A DNA stretch of 64,000 bases from Sphingomonas sp. LY29 (lineage in GTDB: Bacteria > Pseudomonadota > Alphaproteobacteria > Sphingomonadales > Sphingomonadaceae): NCBI RefSeq assembly GCF_035593985.1, contig NZ_CP141587.1, positions 992,001 through 1,056,000 of the forward strand, given 5' to 3'. A program made the position numbers and the translations under genes. The notes beneath the pieces are model-generated. The model was not told the DNA's origin. It ran no database searches and saw nothing but the letters and a program-made list of their open reading frames with translations. Below are positions 29,320-42,454 of the stretch, one piece after another (position 1 is the first letter of the stretch; every line of letters starts with the position of its first letter).

Positions 29320-30123
29320 CTAACGCCGGGCGGCCCCAGTGGTGCCGCGCTTCAGCGTCGCAACGAATTGGGCGATCTCTTCGGGAGGACGCCCCTCCCC
29401 GACCAGTTTGACGATGGCCGATCCCGAAATCGCCCCCGCCGCGCCCGCTTCGATCGCCTGACGGACGTGCTCCGGGCTGGCAATCCCGAAGCCCAGGACC
29501 GGAGGCGGCGCGCCAGCGCTGGCGAGCCCCGAAAACAGCGCATCGTGGTCGAGCGCAAGTTGCTGGTCGGCGCCGGTGACGCCCGCGCGGGCGACACAAT
29601 AGGTGTAACCCGACGACAGCGACGCAATCCGTTCCAGGACTTCCCTCGGCGTGTTGGGCGCGGCGATCATGACGAGGTCGAGGCCAGCTGCCCGCGCTGC
29701 CTTGGCATAGGGTGCCGCCTCGATGCTCGGCACGTCGGCGACCAGCAGGCTGTCGACGCCAGCCTCGACCAGTTCCTCGCAGAACCGATCGATGCCGCGC
29801 GCCGACACAATGTTGGCGTAGGTCAGCACTCCGACCGGAACGTCGGCATGCCGTGCCCGGAAATCGCCAAGCATGCGCAGGCAGTCGGCGGTGCGAACCC
29901 CCGCCGCCAGCGCGCGCTGCGCGGCAGCCTGGATGACCGGCCCGTCGGCCACGGGATCGCTGAACGGGATTCCGAACTCGACCATGTCGGCGCCGCCTTC
30001 GACGAGCGCGTCGAGATAAGCCCCACCTTCGTTCGGCCCGGGATCGCCGAGCATCAGGAAGGCACCGAGCGCACCATCGCCGGCCTTCGCGCAGCGGTCG
30101 AACATCGCGGCGTAGCGGCTCAC
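29320..30123 (-). CDS. trpA: Tryptophan synthase alpha chain
   Basis: The 267-residue TIM-barrel protein has [16 protein letters not shown] with the catalytic Glu, VADVP with the second acidic residue, and the phosphate-loop region GFGI ... GAISGSAIV. It cleaves indole-3-glycerol phosphate to indole. The start is a GTG at 30123 that overlaps the trpB stop by 4 nt (GTGA); a longer open frame exists but runs inside trpB. It forms the alpha2beta2 complex with the neighbouring trpB product. Confidence 0.96.
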
Positions 30124-31292
30124 AGCTTGCCTCCCACGAGGCGCTGAGCCTGGGCCACGTCCTTGTCGCCACGGCCAGACAGGTTGACCAGAAGGATCGG
30201 ATCGTCGTCGCGCTCTTCGGCAAGCTTGAGCGCATGCGCCAGTGCGTGGCAGCTTTCGAAGGCGCCAACGATCCCCTCGCCCCGCGCCAGCGCGACGAAG
30301 GCGCCGAGCGCTTCGTCGTCGGTCGCGCCGACATAGTCCGCGCGGCCGATGTCCTTTAAATGCGCATGCTCGGGTCCGACCGCGGGATAGTCGAGCCCCG
30401 CCGATACCGACCAGGTGTCGTCCACCTGTCCGTCCTCGTCCTGAAGCAACAGCGTCTCGGCGCCGTGCAGGATACCCGGCCGACCGCGGAGAATGGTCGC
30501 GCCATGCTCTCGCCCGGACAAGCCCTTGCCCGCAGCCTCGACCCCGATGATCTGCACCTCGGCATCGTCGACGAAGTCGGCAAAAAGCCCGATCGCGTTC
30601 GACCCGCCGCCCACGCAGGCGATGACGGCATCGGGCAAGCGTCCCTCGATCTCCAAGATCTGCTCGCGGGCTTCCTTGCCGATGACGCGCTGATATTCGC
30701 GCACCATCAGCGGGAATGGATGCGGGCCGGCGACCGTGCCGAGCAGGTAATGCGTGTCGGCGAAGCTCGCGGTCCACTCGCGCAGCGCCTCGTTAACCGC
30801 ATCCTTGAGCGTGCGCCCGCCGCCCGTCACCGGGATGACGGCCGCGCCCATCAATTCCATCCGGAAGACGTTGAGCTGCTGCCGCTCGACATCGTCGGCG
30901 CCCATGAAGATCCGCGTTTCCAGCCCGAACAACGCTCCGGCAAGTGCAGTGGCGACACCGTGCTGGCCTGCGCCCGTTTCCGCGATCAGCTTGGTCTTGC
31001 CCATGCGCTTGGCGAGCAAGCCCTGCGCGAGCACCTGATTGGTCTTGTGCGCGCCGCCGTGGAGAAGGTCCTCGCGCTTCAGATAGATCCGCGCGCCCTT
31101 CCCGATATTGCGGCAGCGCGTGAGCGGCGTCGGCCGACCCGCATAGGTCGACAGCAGGCCCGAAAGCTCCGCCTGAAAGTCGGGATCGTCCTGCGCGTCG
31201 AGAAACGCCGCCTCAAGCTGCTCGAGCGCGGGAACGAGGATTTCGGGGACGTAGGCACCGCCATAGCGTCCGAACCGGCCATCCATTCTCAT
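30120..31292 (-). CDS. trpB: Tryptophan synthase beta chain
   Basis: The 390-residue PLP enzyme has HKTNQVLAQ with the PLP lysine, [12 protein letters not shown], and GGGSNAIG for the phosphate. It joins indole and serine to tryptophan. The ATG at 31292 overlaps the trpCF stop by 4 nt; an ATG two codons later is an alternative. It lies between the fused trpCF and trpA. Confidence 0.97.
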
Positions 31293-32662
31293 GCGTCACC
31301 CCTGCTCTTCGGTCGTAGCGCCGCAAACAGTGCGCGCACTTTTCCTTCGTTCTTGACGCCCGGCGACGCCTCGACCCCTGAACCCACGTCGAGCCCGAAA
31401 GCCCCAAGTCGGTCGGCATCGGCAATATTTTCCGGGCCGAGCCCCCCCGCGATGAAAGCGGTGCTCAGCTCGTCACGACCTTCGACCAGCGACCAGTTAA
31501 ACACTTCGCCAAGACCGCCGCTGGCGCCGCCGCGCTGGCGATCGAACAGGGTCCGATCGACGCCACTGCGGGCTGCGGGAACGTCGGCGTCGACGCCGGA
31601 CACGCCCCAGATTTCGACGTGATCGGGAAGCCGGCGCCGCAAGTCGGCGATCGCCTCTTCGCTCTCGCTGCCGTGAAGCTGCACGGCGACGAGCTTGAGC
31701 TTCGTGGCCACGTCCGCGACCTCGCCGGGATCGGCATCGCGAAAGACGCCGACCGGCTTCAGCCCTGCGTCGGTCGCGGCGGCGGCCAGAGGCGCGGCCT
31801 CGGAAGGCGTGACCGCTCGCGGCGTTCCGGGCACAAAGATCATGCCGACATGGGTCGCTCCCGCGGCAGCGGCGCTCCGGACATCGTCGGCGCGGGTCAT
31901 GCCGCACAGCTTGACCGTTCCGTGCACCAGCGCTCTCGCCGCCTGGGCGATGTCTGGCGAGGCCATCAGCGAGGAACCGACCAGGAAGGCGTCGGCGAAA
32001 GGCGCGAGCCGCTTGACGTCGGCGCGGCTTCCAACACCGGATTCGCTGATCACCAGCACGTCGGCGGGGACCAGCGGCGCAAGGCGCTCGGTCACCGCGA
32101 GGTCCGTCCTGAGCGTCTTGAGATCGCGATTGTTGATGCCGACGATCGTCGCGCCAAGAGCCAGGGCGCGCGAAAGCTCTTCCTCGTCATGGACCTCGAC
32201 AATGACATCCATCGACCGCGCCGCGGCGCGGTCCATCACCGCCTTGGCGATCTCGTCCTCCAGCACCGACATCATGACCAGCACGACGTCGGCGCCGGCG
32301 GCCCGCGCCTCATCGACCTGCGCCGGGTCGACGATGAAGTCCTTCGCGAGGATCGGGCCGTCGAACCGCTCGCGAGCGAACCTGAGATCGTCGAGCGATC
32401 CGCCAAAGTCCGGGCCGTCGATCAGGACGCTGAGCGCGTCCGCTACCGGCGCATAGGCCGCCACCGCCTGCTCGACGGTCAGCGCGCTGCGATGCCCCGA
32501 TGGCGACGCTCGCTTTACTTCCATGATGAACCGCACGCCCGGCCGCGACAGCGCGGCGCGGAGCGACCGCGTCGTCGGCTCGGCGGCGATGGTCCGCCCG
32601 CCGAGCCGCTCGACCACCTCTTCCTTCTTTCGCGCGACGATCCGCGCGAGCACATCAGCCAC
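31289..32662 (-). CDS. trpCF: Fused indole-3-glycerol-phosphate synthase / phosphoribosylanthranilate isomerase
   Basis: One continuous frame encodes 457 residues. Residues 1-246 are Trp[12 protein letters not shown] with catalytic Glu48 and Lys50, LAKDFIVD with Lys107, and [12 protein letters not shown]. Residues 249-457 are Trp[11 protein letters not shown] with catalytic Cys253, [16 protein letters not shown] and GLDVGSGVE with the general-acid Asp. The order is that of the enteric TrpC(F) fusion. The start is a GTG at 32662 with GGAGG six bases upstream, overlapping the trpD stop by 8 nt; the ATG at 32683 lies within the trpD end and has no ribosome site. A fusion is unexpected in an alphaproteobacterium, where trpC and trpF are normally separate. 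Confidence 0.95.
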
Positions 32663-33731
32663 GGCTTGCCTCCACATAGGCATCGAGAACGGCGCCCGCG
32701 CGACCCGACAGAAGGGCGTCGCGGGCGATGTCCGCCCCGTCCTTCAGTTCGTAGGCGATCCCGGCAGTCATCAGCAGCGCGGCGGCGTTGAGGATGACGA
32801 TGTCGTTCTCCGCCTTCGCGCCCTGACCGTTGAGCAGCGTCCGGAACCGCGCCGCATTCTCCTCGACATCGCCGCCGGTCACGACCTTCAACGCCGCGCG
32901 CTCGATGCCGGCGTCCTCGGGCGTGATCTCCATTTCCTGCATCCGTCCGGCCGAAAGGCGGATCGCGCGCGTCTCGGCATGAAGCGCGACCTCGTCGAGT
33001 CCCGACCCATGCACGACCAGCGCTTCCTCGACCCCCATCGCGTCGAGCGTCGTCGCGATCCGGCGAAGCATCTTGGGGTCAGCGACGCCGAGCAATTGCA
33101 CCGGCGGGCGGGCCGGATTGATGCATGGTCCGAGCAGATTCATCACCGTCCGCACTGATAGTTGCCGGCGAACCGGCGCGGCGTGCTTCATGCCGGGATG
33201 GTAGGCAGGTGCGAACAGGAAGCAGAAGGCGGTGTCATCGAGCAGTCGACGCGCGTCCGCCGCCGGCATGTCGAGGCGAGCGCCGAGCGCTTCCAGCACG
33301 TCCGCCGAACCGCAGCGGCTGCTGACCGAGCGATTGCCGTGCTTGGCGACGGGCAGCCCGCTTGCCGCCGCGACGAATGCCGCCGCAGTCGACACGTTGA
33401 TCGATCCCGACCCGTCGCCGCCGGTCCCGCAACAGTCGGCAAACAGATAGTCGGGCCGATCGAACGGCTCCGCCGCACTCGACAGCGCACGCGCCGCGCC
33501 GATCATTTCCTCGGCGGTTTCGCCCTTCATCCGCAGCGCGATCAGCATCCCGGCAATTTCGGCAGGCTCGAGCCGGCCAAGGACAAGCCGCTCGAACAGG
33601 TGCGCCGCGTCCTCGATCGGCAAATCCTCTCCGCTGAGCAGCTTGGGCAGCGGATTGGGGACCGGCCCATGGTCCTCGGGCGGATGCGACGGACCGAGGA
33701 GGGCGTCGACGGAAATCGGAAGCGTGGACAT
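32655..33731 (-). CDS. trpD: Anthranilate phosphoribosyltransferase
   Basis: The 358-residue protein carries the PRPP-binding CGTGGDGSGSINVST, the KHGNRSVSSRCGSADVLEALG region and VRTVMNLLGP(C)INPA. It couples anthranilate with PRPP. The ATG at 33731 has AAGGA seven bases upstream; the in-frame extension upstream runs through the attenuator hairpin and is not coding. It is the first structural gene behind the trp leader. trpE and trpG are not in the window. Confidence 0.95.
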   Translation of the reverse strand: MSTLPISVDALLGPSHPPEDHGPVPNPLPKLLSGEDLPIEDAAHLFERLVLGRLEPAEIAGMLIALRMKGETAEEMIGAARALSSAAEPFDRPDYLFADCCGTGGDGSGSINVSTAAAFVAAASGLPVAKHGNRSVSSRCGSADVLEALGARLDMPAADARRLLDDTAFCFLFAPAYHPGMKHAAPVRRQLSVRTVMNLLGPCINPARPPVQLLGVADPKMLRRIATTLDAMGVEEALVVHGSGLDEVALHAETRAIRLSAGRMQEMEITPEDAGIERAALKVVTGGDVEENAARFRTLLNGQGAKAENDIVILNAAALLMTAGIAYELKDGADIARDALLSGRAGAVLDAYVEASRG

Positions 33732-33765
33732 GATAATTCCTTGGGCATTGGGGGCAGCGGACACG

Positions 33766-33790
33766 AAAAAGCCCGCCGGATGGGCGGGCT
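33766..33790 (-). terminator. trp attenuator terminator
   Basis: AGCCCGCC and GGCGGGCT form a perfect 8-bp GC-rich stem around a 5-nt loop, followed at once by five T. It lies between the leader-peptide stop (33820) and the trpD ribosome site, 35 nt before the trpD ATG. Confidence 0.85.
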
Positions 33791-33833
33791 CGTCGGGTCG
33801 GTCGGTTATCGGGTGAGGATTACCAGCCGCGCC
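33783..33833 (-). promoter_or_regulatory. trp antiterminator pairing (leader segment with terminator 5' arm)
   Basis: The segment GGCGCGGCT (33833-33825), which codes for the last residues of the leader peptide, is complementary to the terminator 5' arm AGCCCGCC (33790-33783) over eight pairs if one C is bulged. A ribosome stalled at the tandem Trp codons (33867-33862) would leave this segment free to pair and prevent the terminator. A ribosome reaching the stop would cover it. Confidence 0.6.
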
Positions 33834-33912
33834 ATCGCGCCGCGCCAAGGAGGGGCGCGCGCCACCAACGGCCAGCGGTGCTGGTCAGCGTCGGAAGGGA
33901 GGGCGTCGTCAT
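33820..33912 (-). CDS. trpL: trp operon leader peptide (30 residues, four Trp)
   Basis: The short frame encodes a 30-residue peptide whose second half reads GRWWRAPLLGAARWRGW and then stops. It has four Trp codons (33867-33862 tandem, one at 33840-33830, and the last codon before TAA). It sits between a TTGACA promoter and a terminator hairpin ahead of trpD. This is the layout of a transcription attenuator that senses charged tRNA-Trp. The frame is open further upstream (to 34020). I place the start at 33912 because the promoter spacing puts the transcript 5' end at or next to this ATG, which would make it leaderless as I recall for trpL of Sinorhizobium. The start is the least certain part. 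Confidence 0.8.
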   Translation of the reverse strand: MTTPSLPTLTSTAGRWWRAPLLGAARWRGW

Positions 33913-33919
33913 GGCCGGG

Positions 33920-33948
33920 CTTGTCGCTTGCCGCATGGTTGCTGTCAA
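33920..33948 (-). promoter_or_regulatory. Candidate trp operon promoter
   Basis: A perfect TTGACA (33948-33943) is followed after 17 nt by the weak -10 GACAAG (33925-33920). The expected start lies around 33913-33912, on the ATG of the leader peptide. The -35 match is strong and the -10 is poor. Confidence 0.5.
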
Positions 33949-34041
33949 CCGGCGTTCGAATGGTTGGTTCCGGCCCATTGAACCGGTAAGAAGAGAAGGT
34001 GCGTAGGGAGGGTTGTTCACAATGAGTCGGCGGGACCGGCC

Positions 34042-35307
34042 ATGACCGTGGCGCGGTCGATCGCGTGGCGTCTCGCCACCGACCCCATCGTCATGATCGC
34101 GATCGGCCTGACTGGCGCTGCTGCCGTCGCCAGCAGCGGAGCGGCCGAAATCCCCACGCCAGCGATCGTGGCCGCGAAGCCGACCGTTGCTCCCATGCCC
34201 GCCAAGCCTATCGCCAAGGTCTCGCGGGATCAGGCGCCCGCAGGAACGGCAATCGAAATGTCGTTCGCGGTCGAAGCCGGGCGTTCGCTCGCCGAGCAGA
34301 TCGCGGCCAGCGGCGCTGCGAACAATGACTCCGATCGTGCCGCGTCACTGGTCGGCCCGTCGCTTCCCGACGGTTCGAACCTGACGCTCTGGCTGGGTGA
34401 GAAGGGAACTGACGGGACCCGGCCAATCCTCAAGCTCCTCGCCAAGCCATCGTTCGACCGCGCGGTCGTCATCGTCCCGGTGAACGGCGCGCTGCAGGCC
34501 ACACATCACTCCACGACCGTCGATGCCACGCCGAAACGCTTCAGCGGGTTGGTCGGTGATGGCCTCTACTGGTCGCTCCGGAAGGCAGGCGTGTCGGCCG
34601 GATCGGCGCAGGAATATCTTGGCGCGATCGCGGGCAGGGTCGACCTTACCACCGTGCGTCGGAATGATCGCTTCGACCTGATCGCCGACCAGCGCCGAAG
34701 CGCGACCGGCGAAACCCGCGCTGGGCCGTTGCTCTATGTCGCGCTCCTAAGGCCGGGCAACCAACCGATCGAACTGGTGCGATGGACGGTGCAGGGCCGC
34801 GACAGCTGGCTCGATCCCGACCAGAGCGACGCGGCCGAAGAGCAGCTCTCGCTTCCGTCGGGCACGATCAGTTCACGCTTCGGCTACCGCTTCCACCCTG
34901 TCCTCCACCGCAGCCGTCTACATCGCGGGGTCGACGTCCGCGCCTCCTACGGCACCGCCGTCTATGCGGCCGGCGACGGTCGCGTGGCGGCCGCCGGATG
35001 GGCGGGCGGCTATGGCAATCAGGTGCGGCTTGCGCACGACGACGCCATGACCACCAGCTACTCGCACCTCAGCCGGATCGTCGCCGAACCAGGAGCCTCG
35101 GTTCGCAAGGGACAATTGATCGGCTTCGTCGGCTCGACCGGCCTGTCGACCGGCCCCCACCTCCATTTCGAGGTCATGGAGCGCGGTCGCGCGGTCGATC
35201 CCCTCGGCGGCGCCTTGTCGGCACGGCGCACCATCGATCCGTCCGATCGCGCCGCCCTGCCGGTGCGACTGAAGCAACTTATGGAAATCCACCCCGCCAA
35301 AGGCTGA
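34042..35307 (+). CDS. M23 family zinc metallopeptidase (LytM domain), membrane-anchored or exported
   Basis: The 421-residue product has an N-terminal hydrophobic segment (about residues 13-30), a variable central region (LysM-like or OapA-like part not resolved) and a C-terminal M23 domain from about residue 285. Zinc-binding motifs HRGVDVRA (HxxxD) and HLHFE (HxH) are intact, so it should be an active peptidoglycan endopeptidase in the periplasm. It is divergent from the trp operon. Its last 29 nt overlap the 3' end of the converging prepilin peptidase gene. Confidence 0.9.
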   Translation: MTVARSIAWRLATDPIVMIAIGLTGAAAVASSGAAEIPTPAIVAAKPTVAPMPAKPIAKVSRDQAPAGTAIEMSFAVEAGRSLAEQIAASGAANNDSDRAASLVGPSLPDGSNLTLWLGEKGTDGTRPILKLLAKPSFDRAVVIVPVNGALQATHHSTTVDATPKRFSGLVGDGLYWSLRKAGVSAGSAQEYLGAIAGRVDLTTVRRNDRFDLIADQRRSATGETRAGPLLYVALLRPGNQPIELVRWTVQGRDSWLDPDQSDAAEEQLSLPSGTISSRFGYRFHPVLHRSRLHRGVDVRASYGTAVYAAGDGRVAAAGWAGGYGNQVRLAHDDAMTTSYSHLSRIVAEPGASVRKGQLIGFVGSTGLSTGPHLHFEVMERGRAVDPLGGALSARRTIDPSDRAALPVRLKQLMEIHPAKG

Positions 35308-36019
35308 CCGCCGAAATCCCGATGGCGGCGATGGCGAGGAAGGTGCCCAGCGGAAGTTGGTCGTGCGCCCGATGGCGACGGACGATGGCGATGCCGAGGC
35401 CCAGCAGCGCCGCGGCCAGAAGGACAAAGGGCAGGTTCATCCATCCTACCCACGCGCCGATCGCCCCGAATAATTTGGGATCGCCGCCACCCATTCCCTG
35501 CCGGTTGCGGACGCGCCGATACGCCAACGCGATGGCGGCGAGGCTGAGGAACCCGACCACGGCGCCAATCCCCCGGTCGATCAGCGGAATGTTCAAGGCG
35601 ACACCGCCCAGCGCAATCCCGCTGACCGCGAGCAATGCCGTCAGACGATCAGGCAACCAGTGATGGCGCCAGTCGAGCACAGCAAGCGCAAGCAATTGCC
35701 ACCACAACAGCGCGACCGCCGCCCCTGCAAGGTTTGGCGCAAGCGCAAGCGCTCCACCGCCGAGCACTGCGGCGGCAATTTCCACCCGCAAGTGAACCGG
35801 GTCGATCGGAGCGGAACAGGTGCGACAGCGCCCCCGTTGAATCGCGAACGACAGGACCGGGATCAGGTCCAGCGCACCAAGCACTCGGCCGCAACCGTCG
35901 CACCGCGACCGCCCGCCGACAACCGACAATTCCTTGGGCCAGCGCAGGCACAGGGTCGCGAGAAAGCTGCCGACGATCGCTCCTGCCACCGCACCGAGCA
36001 GCGGCGCGAGCAGTGTCAC
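35279..36019 (-). CDS. gspO: Type II secretion prepilin peptidase
   Basis: The 246-residue membrane protein has the GspO/PilD cytoplasmic zinc cluster (CDGCG ... CRTC) and both catalytic aspartates: LDWRHHWLPD and the GGGDPKLFG motif. It cleaves and methylates the pseudopilins encoded upstream. The start is a GTG at 36019 overlapping the gspN stop by 4 nt; the longer frame runs within gspN. It is the last gene of the gsp operon and overlaps the M23 gene tail to tail by 29 nt. Confidence 0.92.
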   Translation of the reverse strand: MTLLAPLLGAVAGAIVGSFLATLCLRWPKELSVVGGRSRCDGCGRVLGALDLIPVLSFAIQRGRCRTCSAPIDPVHLRVEIAAAVLGGGALALAPNLAGAAVALLWWQLLALAVLDWRHHWLPDRLTALLAVSGIALGGVALNIPLIDRGIGAVVGFLSLAAIALAYRRVRNRQGMGGGDPKLFGAIGAWVGWMNLPFVLLAAALLGLGIAIVRRHRAHDQLPLGTFLAIAAIGISAVSLWRGGFP

Positions 36020-36747
36020 AGCTGTCCGTCGACCGACAGGGTCAGGCCGTTGGCAGTGGGGCGAAATCCGAACAGCTGAAGCGCGACCTGCGCATCGGGC
36101 GCGGCGCCGCGAACGCTCATCCATCCGCGATATCCGCCATCGGCAGTCATGTAGAATTCGACACGTTCGGCGCCCGATCCGCCAACCATGGTCACGCGCG
36201 CGCGGCGCCCGTCGCAGGTCAGCGTTCCGCGAAGACCCGACGCCAGGTTGATCCCCGCGACCGGGATGGTGATGACCGGCACCACGCTTCCGCTAGCCTC
36301 AACGCAAGTATCGTCCCGGAACAGCAGGGTGACGTCGGTCAGGTCGAGCGCGGTCAGCGGGATCGGGGCGAACATCTCGCCGACCGCGACGCGTCCGGTC
36401 GCCCCGACGATGCCGCGCCGCGATCCGGCCAGAAGGCGTCCGTCGAGCGGCCCTTCGAGCCCGTCGAGGCGGCGGAACTTCATGCTGGCGGACCCGGTCA
36501 GCAAGGGCAGTGGATCGAGCGCGACGTCGAACGATCCCAGCGGCCGATCGCCGAGGTGCAAATCGCCCAGCCTTCCGCCCCATATCGTCCCGGCAACCTG
36601 CCGGGCGGTGAAGCCCATCTTTTCAACATCGGTCAGCCCGAGCGCGAGCCGGAGCGGCATGAGCGCCAGCAGCGCGAGCAAACCCACGCCAGCCAGCCAC
36701 AGATACCAGCGCCAGCCGATGCGCTTGACGATCACGAGCCGGGTCAC
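36016..36747 (-). CDS. gspN: Type II secretion system protein N
   Basis: The 243-residue protein has one N-terminal membrane segment (about residues 15-37) and a periplasmic domain rich in beta strands, with VAGTIWGGRLGDLHLGD and LPLLTGSASM typical of GspN. GspN is an accessory inner-membrane component that is missing from some T2SS loci. The start is a GTG overlapping the gspM stop by 4 nt. It is identified mainly by order and by this pattern. Confidence 0.85.
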   Translation of the reverse strand: MTRLVIVKRIGWRWYLWLAGVGLLALLALMPLRLALGLTDVEKMGFTARQVAGTIWGGRLGDLHLGDRPLGSFDVALDPLPLLTGSASMKFRRLDGLEGPLDGRLLAGSRRGIVGATGRVAVGEMFAPIPLTALDLTDVTLLFRDDTCVEASGSVVPVITIPVAGINLASGLRGTLTCDGRRARVTMVGGSGAERVEFYMTADGGYRGWMSVRGAAPDAQVALQLFGFRPTANGLTLSVDGQL

Positions 36748-37217
36748 CGCCCCCTCCCCACGCGCGCGCTGAGCGAAACGTTGCCGTCGCCGGTCGGGGC
36801 AATTCGGACGTCGTCGAGCGTCAGCCCGTCGCGCTCGAGGCCGGCGAGCCAGCCGGTGACCGCAGTCGCCTTCGCGCTTGCGACGCTGATCTGGACTTGC
36901 CCGGCGCCCGCCGCGCTGTTGCTCGCGAGGGTCAGTCCGGCGCGGGCCGCCCGTTCGGCGACCACCAGCGTGATGTCACCACCCGGAACGGCGGCGCCCG
37001 CTCGCGGTGCGTTTCCGGCCTCTGCCAGCGCTCGAACCCGACCGTTGCGATCCACCGCGGCCAAGTGCCGCTCGAGCGCGCTGTCGTAAGCGCGGTTGAG
37101 GGGGACGATGACCAGCAGCCACAGGAACAAGGGCAGCGCGATGATCAGCATCGCCGCCAGCAGGCGCTGCTCGCGCAGCGAGCGCGCGGCATACCATTCG
37201 GTCACTCGGACGATCAT
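36744..37217 (-). CDS. gspM: Type II secretion system protein M
   Basis: The 157-residue protein has the GspM plan: a short cytoplasmic start, one membrane segment (about residues 20-38) followed by the VPLNRAYDSALERHLAA helix, and a small ferredoxin-like periplasmic domain. It stabilises GspL in the inner-membrane platform. It overlaps gspL and gspN by 4 nt each. Sequence conservation is low in this family, so the call leans on order and topology. Confidence 0.85.
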   Translation of the reverse strand: MIVRVTEWYAARSLREQRLLAAMLIIALPLFLWLLVIVPLNRAYDSALERHLAAVDRNGRVRALAEAGNAPRAGAAVPGGDITLVVAERAARAGLTLASNSAAGAGQVQISVASAKATAVTGWLAGLERDGLTLDDVRIAPTGDGNVSLSARVGRGR

Positions 37218-38335
37218 GCCTGGCTCCGGATCGTGATGTCGACGGTCGAGCGGCCATCCGCCGCTTGGCGCGGGACGGCGGTGACGACATAGCCGTCGCG
37301 TTGCAGCGCAATCAGGACGCGATTGATTTCGTCCACCGTCGGCGCAGCCAGCGTCACCGAAATCGTCCCGTCGCCGCGATAGGCGAAGGCGGTCGAGCTG
37401 ATTCCCTGTTCGGCCTGCAATTGCTGGAACAGCGCGGCCATCCCCGGCGACAGGCCACCGCTCGCGCCCGGCCCCAGCGACTGCGCCATGTCGGCAGCGG
37501 CGCTCTCGATCGTCGGCTCGCGTCCGACGATCCGCGAAGCGATCGCCAATGTCTCGCGGTCGAGCCGGTCGGTCTTACGCTCCAGCCGGACGATGCTGAC
37601 GATCGCCCACAGCAACAGGACGATCGGAATGATTGCGGCGAGCAGCGCCAATTCGCGAAGCCGTGCGCGGTCGACAACCAGCCGCCGCCGCTTGGCGAAA
37701 CGCCCGGTGCGAAGGTCGATCAGCGGCGCTTCCGCCGCCGCGGCCAGCAGCAGGTCGACGTCATCAGCCGCGATCCGCTCGACTTCGTCTCCACCGACCA
37801 AGGCCTCGGCCAGTGCGGGATCGAACGGCATCACCAACCCTTCGCGACCGATCAGCGTCTCGCCGCCGATCACGGCCTCCACCCAACGATCGGTTCGCGG
37901 AATGACCGTCGCGGCAGGAACGATCATGTCGGGATCGACGCCGAGCGCCTGTGCCCAGTCGATCCATTCGACCATCACGCCATTGTCGACGAGTGCGGTG
38001 ACGACGCTTCGTTCGTTCGCCGGATCGATCGTGCTGACCGCATGAAGCGTGGACGCGTCGCCGAGGCTCGCTTCGATCGCGCCGACCCGCGCGATCGCCG
38101 CCGCCTGCTTCGGAGAAGCCGCTTTGCCTGCGTCACCGAACGCGAGCCTGACTGCGCTTGCCGGGGCCAACGCCACTCGGCGGATCGGTCGGCCGTCGGC
38201 GTCGACCATGGCGGCGGTCCAGCCAGCGTCGCTGCCGCGCTCGATCACGCGACCGTCGGCGATCCGCCACCAATGGGTTTCGGGATGCTCGGCGAGCGGC
38301 GCTTCGGGCAGCGCGAACAACAGGGCGTCGACCAT
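37214..38335 (-). CDS. gspL: Type II secretion system protein L
   Basis: The 373-residue protein has an actin-like cytoplasmic domain (first about 225 residues), one membrane segment (LLAAIIPIVLLLWAIVSIV) and a periplasmic domain ending in TVDITIRSQA. GspL recruits the GspE ATPase to the membrane. It begins 3 nt after the gspK stop and overlaps gspM by 4 nt. Confidence 0.88.
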   Translation of the reverse strand: MVDALLFALPEAPLAEHPETHWWRIADGRVIERGSDAGWTAAMVDADGRPIRRVALAPASAVRLAFGDAGKAASPKQAAAIARVGAIEASLGDASTLHAVSTIDPANERSVVTALVDNGVMVEWIDWAQALGVDPDMIVPAATVIPRTDRWVEAVIGGETLIGREGLVMPFDPALAEALVGGDEVERIAADDVDLLLAAAAEAPLIDLRTGRFAKRRRLVVDRARLRELALLAAIIPIVLLLWAIVSIVRLERKTDRLDRETLAIASRIVGREPTIESAAADMAQSLGPGASGGLSPGMAALFQQLQAEQGISSTAFAYRGDGTISVTLAAPTVDEINRVLIALQRDGYVVTAVPRQAADGRSTVDITIRSQA

Positions 38336-38338
38336 CGC

Positions 38339-39322
38339 CTAGCTTGCCTCACCCCATTGCCGCGCGACGATCCGCGCCGGCTTTTCCCGCGCGTCGATCA
38401 GCGCGCTTTCCCTTACGTCGACATTGCCCGCGCGGACAATGGCCTCCATCGCGAAGAAGTCGGTTTTCAGGCGAACCTGCTGGCTCGCTTCGGGCGCGAC
38501 CGGGAGGCCCTCAAGCGCGGGCGACTTCCAGAAGTCGATCACCGCCTCATATCCATCGGCAGGGCGCGACGCGATCACCGTCCGTGCGCGACTGAGGTCG
38601 AGGACGTCGGGTACCAGCATCGACAGCAGCGGCGCCTGCTCCGGCAACAGCGTGTTGATGTTGATCGGCGACATGTCGGTCGTCGGCAGCGCGCAGATCC
38701 ACGGGCGCAGCAACTGATAGTCGCGCGGCGTGACGCCCGCGACCGCGCGAAGCTCGCTGGGGTCCGCCATCAACTGGTTGGCGGGCAGCCCCGCGGCGCT
38801 TCCCGAATAGGCACTGTCCTCGCCGCCGAGGCGAAGCGGCGTCCCGTCGCTGTCGATATAGTCGGCGGTCATGTCGGCGATCTTTTCGGCCTCCCCCGAC
38901 TGCACGCCGAGCACCCGCATCAGCGCGGCGAACTGGCGCGCGCCGCGTTCGCGCGCCACCAGCAGGCCGCCGCCTCGCTCCTCGACCAGGCTGTTTAGGT
39001 TGAAGCAATTGCCCCCGTCCGCGACCTTGGCGCGGGCCACCGATCCGTCAGGCAGGGTGACGGTCCGCTCGACCCCCATCCAGTTTCCGGCCGTCGTGGT
39101 GCGCGTGCCGTCGGCCGCAATCAGAGCCTCGATCCGCGCCATTGTCAGCGCTTCGGCGGTGCCAAGCCACGCACGCGACTGCGCCACCGCGGCGACGTTG
39201 CCGGCCAGCCGCGTGGCGATGCCGACGCGGTCGAGTACGGTGGCCGCGATTGTCGCGATGACCGCGACGAGCAAAAGGACGGTCAGCAAGGCGGTGCCTT
39301 CCTCGCCGGGGCGCGGAGTCAT
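38339..39322 (-). CDS. gspK: Type II secretion minor pseudopilin K
   Basis: The 327-residue protein starts with a prepilin signal in which GEEG precedes TALLTVLLLVAVIATIAAT. The position-5 Glu found in other pseudopilins is absent, as is usual for GspK. The large globular domain fits the tip pseudopilin, including the ADYIDSDGTP segment for calcium/loop binding. The ATG overlaps the gspJ stop by 4 nt; the longer frame upstream lies in gspJ. Confidence 0.9.
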   Translation of the reverse strand: MTPRPGEEGTALLTVLLLVAVIATIAATVLDRVGIATRLAGNVAAVAQSRAWLGTAEALTMARIEALIAADGTRTTTAGNWMGVERTVTLPDGSVARAKVADGGNCFNLNSLVEERGGGLLVARERGARQFAALMRVLGVQSGEAEKIADMTADYIDSDGTPLRLGGEDSAYSGSAAGLPANQLMADPSELRAVAGVTPRDYQLLRPWICALPTTDMSPININTLLPEQAPLLSMLVPDVLDLSRARTVIASRPADGYEAVIDFWKSPALEGLPVAPEASQQVRLKTDFFAMEAIVRAGNVDVRESALIDAREKPARIVARQWGEAS

Positions 39323-39945
39323 GCGGCATTTCCCGGCGGAGGCGTCGCGAGCCCGGATTCTGGAGTCAGCTTCTTTCGAACGTCGGGAAGCGCGAATACC
39401 ATCGTCACCGCGGGCGCGCCTTTCGGCGTCAGCACCAGTTCGACGGCGGCGGGAAGCGGGCGCTCGGGCGTCGAGGCATAGCTTCCAGACCAATTGCCGT
39501 CGGCCGATCGATAGCGAAAGGCCGCCGTCGCATCCTTCGCCATAAGCGCGGGTGCTGCCTCCTCGCCCCGATCGAGGCCGCGGTGACCGATCCGCGCCAA
39601 TCCGCCGCCTTCGACACGCCACTGGACCCGTTGCAGCGACGAGCGCGCCTCGTCGTCGATGTTCTGCCAGCCCGAGCGAACGAACTGCATTTGGTTGGCA
39701 TCGCCAACGAAAGGCGGCCGAACCGCACTGCCGTCGCGCGTCGATCGATCGACCGCCTGTGCAAGGTCTCCGGTCAGCAAGGCGTGAAGGCGCCCCGTAT
39801 CGCTGACGTCGGCAAGGCGCGCCTCGACGGCGGTCTGGGTGTCGACGCTGCTGCGCAGGATCATCACGCCGGCTGCCGCAAGGATCGCGAAGATCACCAG
39901 CGCGACCATCATCTCGACCAGAGTGAAGCCTTCCTCGCGCTGCAT
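39319..39945 (-). CDS. gspJ: Type II secretion minor pseudopilin J
   Basis: The 208-residue product has the type IV prepilin N terminus MQREEGFTLVEMMVALVIF with the Gly cleavage site and Glu at position 5. The following domain includes the WQNIDDEARSSLQRVQW segment typical of GspJ. It overlaps the gspI stop by one base (TGATG) and gspK by 4 nt. It belongs to the I-J-K tip complex. Confidence 0.9.
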   Translation of the reverse strand: MQREEGFTLVEMMVALVIFAILAAAGVMILRSSVDTQTAVEARLADVSDTGRLHALLTGDLAQAVDRSTRDGSAVRPPFVGDANQMQFVRSGWQNIDDEARSSLQRVQWRVEGGGLARIGHRGLDRGEEAAPALMAKDATAAFRYRSADGNWSGSYASTPERPLPAAVELVLTPKGAPAVTMVFALPDVRKKLTPESGLATPPPGNAA

Positions 39946-40313
39946 CAGGCGACCCGCTTGACCATCGTCAGCGCCGCGCGCCCCCGTCCGCCTTGCTCGA
40001 TCGCCAGCAGGTCGATCCGGACCAGCCGCTGGTCGGCGGTCGGCGTGACGGTACGAGTCACGACAAAGGCTCTCCCCGCATTGGTCACCGGCCGCGTCGT
40101 CGCGCCCCGAACGATCGGGCCGACGTCGGTCTGCGCCAGCGCCGCTTCGTTCTGGACGACAAGGTCGGCGACCAGCCGCGCGTCGAGATCGGCGGTCGTC
40201 GCCACCGCGAACCCGTCGAGCCGAAGCAAAGCCAGCGCCGCGATCGCGAACACCGACAGCGCGACCAGCATCTCGATCAGCGTAAATCCGGATTCCGACG
40301 AAGCGCGGCGCAT
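39945..40313 (-). CDS. gspI: Type II secretion minor pseudopilin I
   Basis: The 122-residue protein has the prepilin motif SESGFTLIEMLVALSVFAIA with Gly/Phe cleavage and Glu5. The length fits GspI. It shares single bases with both gspH and gspJ at TGATG junctions. Confidence 0.9.
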   Translation of the reverse strand: MRRASSESGFTLIEMLVALSVFAIAALALLRLDGFAVATTADLDARLVADLVVQNEAALAQTDVGPIVRGATTRPVTNAGRAFVVTRTVTPTADQRLVRIDLLAIEQGGRGRAALTMVKRVA

Positions 40314-40753
40314 CAGTCGACCCGGATGTCGCCGTTGGCAGCGACCGCGACATTGGCGACCCGATCGTCGTTCGTCAGTCGCACCGTGACGGGCGCGTCG
40401 GGAAGGCCGAGCGCGTCAAAACGAACGCGTGCACGCCCGCTCGTCTCGCCCGCCGTCACCCGAATGCCCTTGTCCCAATTGGCGCCCTCGAACGGCTTAT
40501 CGGTCAGCGGTTGCCAGCGCCCGCCGCGATACTTCTCGAAGCCGTATCCGGTGGCGCTGATCCACGCGCTGACGGGCGAGCCGGTAACCACCGCCTCGTC
40601 GCGCGCGGCGCCGAGCCGCGCGGCGTATCGCGTCGCCGCTTCGCTCGCACCGCCGCCGACCTGTCCCGCGGTGAGGACGACCGCGCCGGCGAGCAGGCCC
40701 ATCACGAGGAGGACCACCATTAGCTCGACCAGCGTGAAGCCGTCCTCGCGCAT
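40313..40753 (-). CDS. gspH: Type II secretion minor pseudopilin H
   Basis: The 146-residue protein begins MREDGFTLVELMVVLLVMG, a standard prepilin signal. The globular part with the ARDEAVVTGSPVS segment is typical of GspH/FimT. Its ATG directly follows the gspG stop with no gap, and its stop overlaps gspI by one base. Confidence 0.9.
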   Translation of the reverse strand: MREDGFTLVELMVVLLVMGLLAGAVVLTAGQVGGGASEAATRYAARLGAARDEAVVTGSPVSAWISATGYGFEKYRGGRWQPLTDKPFEGANWDKGIRVTAGETSGRARVRFDALGLPDAPVTVRLTNDDRVANVAVAANGDIRVD

Positions 40754-41224
40754 TCAGCCCTTCGCAGGCTCGGACCTGATGTCGGCATTCTCGTCCGACC
40801 CGCCGGGCGCCCCGTCGGCGCCGAAGGACACGATGTCAAACGGTCCCGACTTGCCCGGCACCGTCAGTTGGTACGGGCGACCCCACGGATCCTGCGGCAC
40901 ATTCTTGATGTAGCCGCCGGGACGGTAGCGGCCCGATTGCGCCAGCGAGGGCGGCGGCGTGACGAGGGCATTCAAGCCATCGCTGCCCGACGGATAGGTG
41001 AGGTTGTCGAGGCGATACATCTCCATCGCCTGTTCCAGCGTGGCGATGTCGGCGCGCGCCTTGGTTTCCATCGCGCGGTCTTGGCTCGGCAGGACGTTGA
41101 TCATCACGACAGTCGCGAGCAGGCCGATGATGACGATGACCACCATCAGTTCGACGAGGGTAAAACCGTCCTCTTCGTCGCGTTGCGGACGATTGGCGAA
41201 GCGGTTGAGCAAAGTACGCAGCAT
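40754..41224 (-). CDS. gspG: Type II secretion major pseudopilin G
   Basis: The 156-residue product carries DGFTLVELMVVIVIIGLLA after an unusually long basic/acidic leader (about 19 residues). The C-terminal YRLDNLTYPSGSDGLNALV and DPWGRPYQ segments are hallmarks of the major pseudopilin. It builds the endopilus rod after cleavage by GspO. It is directly abutted by gspF upstream and gspH downstream. Confidence 0.94.
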   Translation of the reverse strand: MLRTLLNRFANRPQRDEEDGFTLVELMVVIVIIGLLATVVMINVLPSQDRAMETKARADIATLEQAMEMYRLDNLTYPSGSDGLNALVTPPPSLAQSGRYRPGGYIKNVPQDPWGRPYQLTVPGKSGPFDIVSFGADGAPGGSDENADIRSEPAKG

Positions 41225-42454
41225 TTAGCCTCCGATCAGCGATTGAAGCTGCAGGATGGGAAGAAGGATGGCGAGCACGATCGTCGCGACGACCACGCCC
41301 ATCACGACGATGATCGCGGGCTCTAGCATCGACAAGGCGGTCGCGGTGAACTGGTCGAACTCACGCTCGAGATAGTCGGCCGCCTGCGCAAGCATGGCGT
41401 CGAGCCGCCCGGCGCTCTCGCCGCTGGCGGCAAGATACACGAGCAGTGGCGGGAACACCCCTGCCCGCGCCAGTGCACCCGAAATGCTACCCCCGCCGCG
41501 GATCGAAGCGACGATTTCGTCCGTCGCGCGGCGCAGGGCGCGGTTGGAAATGGTGCCGGCGGTGAGACGCAAGCCTTCGACCGCTGGAAGACGGCTTTCC
41601 AGCATCGTAGACAGCGTCCGCGCCATCCGCGCGGCATGAAGGTCGCGGATCAGGCGGCCTAGCAACGGCATTCGCAGCAGGCCGCGATCGAACGCCAGCC
41701 GGAAGTCTTCGTCGCGAAGCGCGCGCCACAGGATGACCGTGCTGAGCGCCAGCGCCAGCAGGATCGCCCACCAGTAAGCAGCAAGGAAGGCGCTGATCCC
41801 GATGATCACCCGGGTCAGCAGCGGCAGTTGCTGGCCGACGTCCTGGAACTGTTCGACCACGCGCGGGACGACCGCGATCATCAGCGCGGCGACGACGCCG
41901 ATCGCGACGATCGTCAGCACTATCGGATAGGCCAGCGCCGACAATATCTTACCGCGCATCTCGGCCTGCCGTTCGAGCAACGCCGACAGCCGTTCGAGCA
42001 ATTCGGGCAGCGAGCCCGAGCTTTCGCCCGCCGACACCATCGCACGATAGAGCGGCGAGAAGCTTTTCGGCTCGCGCGCCATCGCGTCGGCCAGGCGGCG
42101 GCCTTCGACGACGCCGTCGGCAACCGAGGTCACGATCTGGCGGACATGCGGCTGCTCGCTCTGGCGCGAAATGGTCCGAAGCGCTTCCTCGAGCGGGCTG
42201 ACCTGGCTGATCGTCGCCAGTTGCCGCGTGAACAGCGTCAATTGCTTCGCCGAAAGGCGATTGCGATGAAAGGCGATCGGCGTGTCGAGCGACAGCTTGC
42301 CGGGGGTCGCCCCGCTGACGTGCGGCTCGACCCGGACAACGTGAAATCGCTTGGCCTCGAGGTTGGCGCGGGCGGCGGCGTCGTTGGCAGCCTTCAGCCG
42401 GCCGCGTCGCTCGCGGCCTTCCGGGTCGACCGCGAAATAGGCGTACTCAGGCAT
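41225..42454 (-). CDS. gspF: Type II secretion inner-membrane platform protein F
   Basis: The 409-residue protein has two duplicated cytoplasmic helical domains (SPLEEALRTIS ... and LPAVEGLRLT ...) and three membrane segments, the last near the C terminus (AIIVVMGVVVATIVLAILLPI). This matches GspF/PilC. It overlaps gspE by 8 nt. Confidence 0.94.
   Translation of the reverse strand: MPEYAYFAVDPEGRERRGRLKAANDAAARANLEAKRFHVVRVEPHVSGATPGKLSLDTPIAFHRNRLSAKQLTLFTRQLATISQVSPLEEALRTISRQSEQPHVRQIVTSVADGVVEGRRLADAMAREPKSFSPLYRAMVSAGESSGSLPELLERLSALLERQAEMRGKILSALAYPIVLTIVAIGVVAALMIAVVPRVVEQFQDVGQQLPLLTRVIIGISAFLAAYWWAILLALALSTVILWRALRDEDFRLAFDRGLLRMPLLGRLIRDLHAARMARTLSTMLESRLPAVEGLRLTAGTISNRALRRATDEIVASIRGGGSISGALARAGVFPPLLVYLAASGESAGRLDAMLAQAADYLEREFDQFTATALSMLEPAIIVVMGVVVATIVLAILLPILQLQSLIGG

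Follow-up and report, generated by a model that had tools for sequence, protein, structure and literature searches.

An apparent genus-wide tryptophan leader-peptide attenuator before the trpD-first operon of Sphingomonas sp. LY29, most likely serving kynurenine or anthranilate salvage

What does a tryptophan attenuator control when it stands before trpD, in a genome that has no trpE? In Escherichia coli, the trp attenuator is single, is located before trpE and has an untranslated leader, and TrpR is present. A first-pass annotation of DNA from Sphingomonas sp. LY29, made from the letters alone, had proposed a complete attenuator with a four-Trp leader peptide in front of an operon that begins with trpD. 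The window analyzed here is the whole stretch of 64,000 nucleotides (contig NZ_CP141587.1, positions 992,001 to 1,056,000), and positions are counted from its first letter. The features of the locus are the following:

33948-33943, minus strand: -35 box TTGACA, read from the sequence
33925-33920, minus strand: weak -10 hexamer GACAAG, 17-nt spacer after TTGACA, read from the sequence
33912-33820, minus strand: leader peptide ORF of 30 codons, MTTPSLPTLTSTAGRWWRAPLLGAARWRGW followed by a stop (ORF translation)
33862-33867, minus strand: tandem Trp codons 16-17, predicted stall site
33820-33846, minus strand: segment 2, antiterminator 5' side with the conserved core GCGCGATGGCGC, overlapping the last leader codons (alignment and folds)
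33783-33791, minus strand: segment 3, terminator 5' arm GAGCCCGCC (folds, terminator scan)
33766-33777, minus strand: segment 4, terminator 3' arm GGCGGGCTT and T-run (sequence, terminator scan)
32655-33731, minus strand: trpD, anthranilate phosphoribosyltransferase (TIGR01245, 391 bits)
31289-32683, minus strand: trpCF fusion (NF006945, 470 bits, over cut-off; best solved relative 1pii)
30120-31292, minus strand: trpB (TIGR00263, 595 bits)
29320-30123, minus strand: trpA (PF00290, 253 bits)

The TTGACA box, the 30-codon frame with four Trp codons (16, 17, 27 and 30) and the GC stem followed by five T residues were all found where the first-pass annotation had placed them. The terminator (GAGCCCGCC-CATCC-GGCGGGCTT at 33791-33769, five-T run at 33770-33766) is the one terminator-like site in the region 32000-35500, and it is not significant alone because shuffles of that region average 1.4 such sites. 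Rfam, whose families include a trp leader, gave no match to the window at gathering score. HMM searches confirmed the order trpD-trpCF-trpB-trpA after the attenuator, and the leader would control genes making the same amino acid. Elsewhere in the window (35279-42454) there is a cluster reminiscent of type II secretion genes, with translations that we take to be a prepilin peptidase and a GspF-N protein.

The leader ATG at 33912 lies seven bases past the GACAAG hexamer, which was absent from the output of a promoter consensus scan. In 44 of the 47 leaders read in the genus, the distance from a TTGAC box to the chosen start codon is 35-39 nt; the 5' end of the RNA is therefore expected no more than about three bases from that codon, which suggests that the leader mRNA is leaderless. 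For the window leader, promoter spacing places the predicted start of the transcript on the A of its start codon (33912) or close by. The RNA 5' end of S. meliloti rnTrpL is reported at the leader ATG, according to the accessible part of PMC7298713.

In the proposed mechanism, RNA polymerase would transcribe the leader, starting at or within a few bases of its ATG, while a ribosome translates it. With ample Trp-tRNA, the ribosome would reach the stop codon and cover segment 2, and the terminator would form before trpD. With scarce Trp-tRNA, it would stall at Trp codons 16-17 and leave segment 2 free to pair with the stop-proximal spacer and the terminator 5' arm, giving read-through into trpD. 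We consider it highly probable that the locus is a Trp-responsive leader-peptide attenuator of trpD-trpCF-trpB-trpA, most likely serving kynurenine/anthranilate salvage. The case for attenuation in cis is strong, and that for salvage is reasoned from gene content.

A contig scan yielded 26 trpD relatives at 62-85% identity, after which identity fell to 48% and below, and nearly all of them were named Sphingomonas or Sphingomicrobium. A WW leader ORF precedes trpD in 21 of the 25 relatives examined, including Sphingomonas rhizophila (L012), S. arenae (L003) and Sphingomicrobium lutaoense (L020), and trpG is found there in the other four. Within the genus of the window, a trpD match was detected in 67 of 71 genomes, and 60 loci were read: 13 contiguous ones, in which trpE-trpG runs into trpD, and 47 others, two of which (G071, G084) have trpG upstream of the leader. 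All 47 non-contiguous loci carry a leader with at least two Trp codons before trpD, a count partly set by the search rule; at least three are present in 45 and a tandem pair in 39. A terminator lies between leader and trpD in 46, the locus without a good one being G056. In the 46 aligned loci, leader and terminator are in register, the core is near-invariant and the promoter box is present in nearly all. Leader and terminator are found at trpD in none of the 13 contiguous loci; chance short ORFs with two Trp codons occur there inside trpG, without a terminator. Since GC-rich DNA such as this readily yields ORFs of that kind by chance, the verdict against chance is based on the shared aligned core, register and terminator, not on two Trp codons alone. 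Seven further trpD loci were assessed by a covariance model alone, which placed a leader at trpD in G062, G067, G072, G074 and G083 and gave no trpD leader match in G090 and G091.

A related leader ending in HRW precedes trpD in g54, the genus with the next closest TrpD (match in two of four sampled genomes), and in Sphingomonas deserti (L025). In other genera, a TrpG-like frame lies directly before trpD and no leader was seen, in all 20 genomes (16 genera) drawn from the top of the match list. An attenuator before a trpD-first operon, which the first-pass annotation had singled out as unfamiliar in this group, is thus unusual in the family as sampled. Covariance model R1, applied to 199 family genomes under strict filters, gave no match above 36.5 bits outside the genus. 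It recovered the g54 trpD leader in G148 weakly (27.7 bits), and none of the ten outside loci read among its many weak matches (L243-L252) resembles a Trp leader before a trp gene, chance ORFs with at least two Trp codons being present in some. WW peptides in G270, G130 and G243 were rejected as leaders, as they lie inside trpG in another frame.

TrpD identity to other genera is 38-47% among the matches listed, g54 apart, and E. coli-type model cut-offs are passed by TrpCF (NF006945) and by one of the three TrpE proteins checked (L087, PRK13564); taken together, these values may point to an origin of the operon in another lineage. The trpD match is in pieces in L166 (G051), L175 (G060) and L154 (G038), with a stop in G060, which reflects decay or sequencing error.

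The first-pass annotation had suggested folding the leader with blocked segments. In co-transcriptional folds of 46 leaders, in which the RNA was folded up to the terminator loop, before the terminator 3' arm exists, segment 3 is sequestered with a mean probability of 0.75 in the stalled state, 0.19 with the ribosome at the stop codon and 0.58 without a ribosome, shuffles of the stall RNA giving 0.57. Sequestration exceeds 0.5 in 45/46 stalled leaders versus 2/46 at the stop codon, a contrast that is partly built in; because the stop state leaves less RNA, the comparison with shuffles is the fair one. By that comparison, 43 of 46 stalled leaders lie above their own shuffle mean and 14 of 46 reach the top 5%. 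The window leader reaches 0.87 when stalled, 0.16 at the stop codon and 0.82 without a ribosome, its shuffles averaging 0.62, with 3% as good. As segment 3 is also sequestered (0.82) in the untranslated RNA, a protective 1:2 hairpin is not evident in the window. In equilibrium folds with blocked segments, the terminator is favoured in any state (means of 0.84 with no block, 0.81 stalled, 0.82 at the stop codon) and drops below 0.5 on stalling in 5/46 leaders. The suggested folding thus produced a switch in its co-transcriptional form and none at equilibrium. The pairing of 33833-33825 (GGCGCGGCT) with the terminator arm (AGCCCGCC), as originally described, is possible via a one-base bulge, but the stalled-ribosome fold of the window leader has a longer, neighbouring helix from 33846 instead.

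Covariation among leaders, which the same annotation had named as a check, did not materialize: the consensus fold of 42 AARW-type leaders, whose alignment has a gappy spacer, consists of a local GCGC-GATG-GCGC hairpin alone, with no antiterminator and no compensatory pair. When leader halves were swapped among the 42 genomes, mean stability was -28.2 for own halves, -26.8 for halves of the same subtype and -23.8 for those of the other subtype. Permutations as good as own halves numbered 0 of 10000 overall and 2279, 2 and 6 of 10000 within subtypes, a result in which kinship remains. Segment 3 sequestration was unchanged by the swaps (0.76 own; 0.77 and 0.76 foreign), and 9 of 42 tails preferred their own half over every other-subtype half. 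The system resembles that of E. coli in its tandem Trp codons, its predicted, mutually exclusive antiterminator and terminator, and the fused TrpCF downstream; unlike there, it is probably leaderless, stands before trpD and has no 1:2 protector evident in the window RNA.

In the genus, a second attenuator is found elsewhere in the pathway. The gene directly before trpE encodes a 3-deoxy-7-phosphoheptulonate synthase, here called aroG (one copy HMM-checked), and a WW or WWW leader precedes it in all 13 contiguous loci. Of the 23 split trpE loci, 20 were read (all but G087, G089 and G091), and 19 of these have the leader. The exception is G083, where no aroG gene was seen before trpE. Contiguous operons have one attenuator and split pathways have two; in the 26 loci read that lack trpE, the attenuator at trpD is retained. 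The trpD leaders of G095 and G051 share 85 of 96 bases with the leader before aroG in G046, a genome placed in one group with them on the tree (79 of 96 for G039); this identity fits a deletion of aroG-trpE-trpG that placed the aroG attenuator on trpD. In G071, a C-terminal remnant of trpE is followed by trpG, the leader and trpD, an arrangement indicating that the leader was already before trpD while trpE decayed.

No trpE is present in the complete genome of the window (a single contig of 2.46 Mb with a completeness rating of 100%); its sole PF00425 (chorismate-binding) protein is a PabB-PabC fusion, and one TrpG/PabA protein scores over cut-off. A genus TrpE query detected TrpE in 36 of 71 genus genomes (at least 387 bits; a single internal TGA interrupts the match in four of them). 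The remaining matches to this query reached at most 152 bits, and the G071 remnant 46 bits. Kynureninase was detected in 33 of 71 (at least 199 bits), 29 of them over cut-off. The kynU of the window's genome (G000:C1:855651-856805; TIGR01814, over cut-off) is located 168 kb from the trp operon, beside dcd and dnaB; the position after dcd and beside dnaB recurs in 8 of 10 kynU loci read, and in G076 kynU is divergent and adjoins the trpD leader of the trp operon. Among 53 good genomes, 27 have trpE only, 20 kynU only, one both and five neither; kynU is thus present in 20 of 25 trpE-less genomes versus 1 of 28 with trpE. The corresponding counts for all 71 genomes are 32, 29, 4 and 6, and the exclusion has a Fisher probability of 8e-9 with kinship ignored. 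A quick TrpD+TrpB tree covering 58 genomes requires a minimum of 10 changes for trpE and of 8 for kynU; the same tree offers six supported independent pairs, two to three in the expected direction and none in the opposite one, an underpowered comparison. Trp 2,3-dioxygenase does not track trpE loss, being present in 67/71 genomes. Arylformamidase was over cut-off in 0/71 genomes, with no match in the window's genome, and a similarity search against plasmids gave no match.

Without trpE, the usual entry from chorismate is closed to the pathway, and its substrate is most likely anthranilate, obtained from kynurenine (kynU being in the genome) or by uptake. The same attenuator might instead govern ordinary biosynthesis, with the PabB-PabC/PabA pair making anthranilate from chorismate. 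Both proteins do remain in the genome, and three of the good genomes with neither trpE nor kynU (G039, G050, G055) keep trpD and leader, the other two (G035, G037) having no trpD. However, the fusion scores as PabB (TIGR00553, 340 bits, over cut-off), TrpE models lying far below their cut-offs, and the distribution of kynU given above speaks for salvage. In addition, five single-contig genomes (G040, G049, G059, G063, G088; 99-100% complete) keep trpD, leader and kynU, and the TrpE query, although it detects PabB too in other genomes, matched nothing in them. We therefore regard such makeshift synthesis as unlikely, though deserving serious consideration, and prefer salvage.

Two other explanations concern the leader itself. 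It might act chiefly in trans, as an sRNA and peptide like S. meliloti rnTrpL/peTrpL, with cis attenuation secondary; the predicted leaderless start is shared with that system, as far as the accessible part of PMC7298713 describes it. Yet the leader tracks trpD, occurring at 47/47 loci without an intact upstream trpE-trpG block and at 0/13 contiguous ones, and a chiefly trans-acting leader is improbable. A chance ORF beside an ordinary constitutive terminator, without regulation, would be in line with a single terminator-like site within shuffle expectation, with the two-Trp short ORFs that arise without a terminator in contiguous loci, and with equilibrium folds that do not switch. This explanation is contradicted by conservation, given 46 aligned homologues with a near-invariant core, and by similar leaders before aroG and before the tauE-2OG pair described below; its probability is close to nil. 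The Trp leader attenuator that the first-pass annotation had read here is by far the best account, its Trp codons (47/47) and stem (terminator 46/47) being conserved in relatives.

The mechanism class is already known; new are the trpD position, the paired attenuators and the probable salvage setting. In searches of openly accessible literature, part of which was available as excerpts, no trpD-first attenuator in Alphaproteobacteria was found. The S. meliloti trpL is similar in being an alphaproteobacterial Trp leader peptide with a terminator; in the accessible part of PMC7298713, it lies before trpE(G), and trpDC forms a second operon under rnTrpL in trans, whereas here a cis attenuator stands before trpD and trpE is absent. 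According to the accessible parts of PMC3937554 and PMC10242142, Chlamydia caviae, C. felis and C. pecorum have a kynU-trpDCFBA salvage route (kynurenine to anthranilate to Trp), and the former paper notes that a Trp leader may precede the C. felis operon, which lacks trpE, and that an attenuator is predicted upstream of C. trachomatis trpBA. The likeness extends to the missing trpE, the retained trpDCFBA and the kynureninase, also present here; in contrast to the chlamydial species, which in these excerpts have trpR and carry kynU and prsA within the operon, trpCF is fused here, kynU is outside the operon and the attenuator is genus-wide. The observations on this genus suggest that Trp attenuation may serve salvage in free-living bacteria, which predicts cross-feeding on kynurenine or anthranilate.

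Trp leaders are also found on other genes. With a threshold of 50 bits, the leader covariance model gave 54 matches in the genus, of which 48 are at trpD (42 of these being the model's own training set), five at a tauE-2OG pair and one at a FadL-type gene. In G027, G034, G060, G064 and G074, the leader precedes a gene for a TauE-family membrane protein, followed by one for a 2OG-Fe(II) oxygenase. The loci with this gene pair, either behind a Trp leader or closing the trp operon, are listed here:

L253, L254, L255, L256, L260; L004:14401-16370: TauE/SafE-family protein and 2OG-Fe(II) oxygenase

All six tauE-2OG genomes, the five just named and G076, are trpE-less and have kynU. The 2OG oxygenase family is a common one (3647 relatives at E up to 1e-20). 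In G034, the tauE-2OG unit and kynU are divergently oriented, and leader and tauE are separated by what is left of a broken trpA (67 residues, 45% identity); in G076, a tauE and 2OG oxygenase pair is found at the end of an intact trp operon. By these two arrangements, the G034 unit resembles a trp operon stripped to leader, tauE and oxygenase.

One genus thus holds an apparent series of attenuator states: on the whole operon, on a split pathway with two, on a pathway minus its first step, and moved onto new genes. A broader scenario, to which we give somewhat less than even confidence, is that this free-living lineage of Alphaproteobacteria lost aroG-trpE-trpG repeatedly and then turned Trp attenuation over from biosynthesis to the service of salvage. 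The salvage regulon under Trp leaders would comprise a kynureninase-fed trpDCFBA, an importer of the TauE family and a 2OG-Fe(II) oxygenase, the last two taking up and converting a Trp-derived compound (kynurenine, anthranilate or an indole), and deletions would have moved the aroG leader onto trpD and the trpD leader onto tauE. The TauE-family membrane protein and the 2OG oxygenase are unstudied candidate members of a Trp salvage route.

Several further leaders were observed. In G046, where trpD lacks a leader of its own, a leader ending in AAARWRGLD and a terminator (L257, G046:C1:2420778-2420872) precede a gene for a FadL/TodX-type outer membrane protein. A Trp-rich leader (QWRWR...AWRWRKG) with a terminator (L258, G080:C6:1287-1358) stands before TonB-dependent receptor-like and amidohydrolase-like genes, named from sequence, and this is possibly another Trp-controlled import unit. 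In the window's genome, two near-identical tandem-Tyr leaders, MTFLIARA[SR]YYR.FTVGSS, each with a terminator-like hairpin (L262, L263; G000:C1:557802-557860 and 932524-932582), precede genes for a biopterin-dependent aromatic amino acid hydroxylase of the phenylalanine hydroxylase type (HMM, one copy). A leader with VYYYPDEV is found before the gene for a similar protein in G045 (L261), and these three look like a Tyr attenuator on the conversion of Phe to Tyr.
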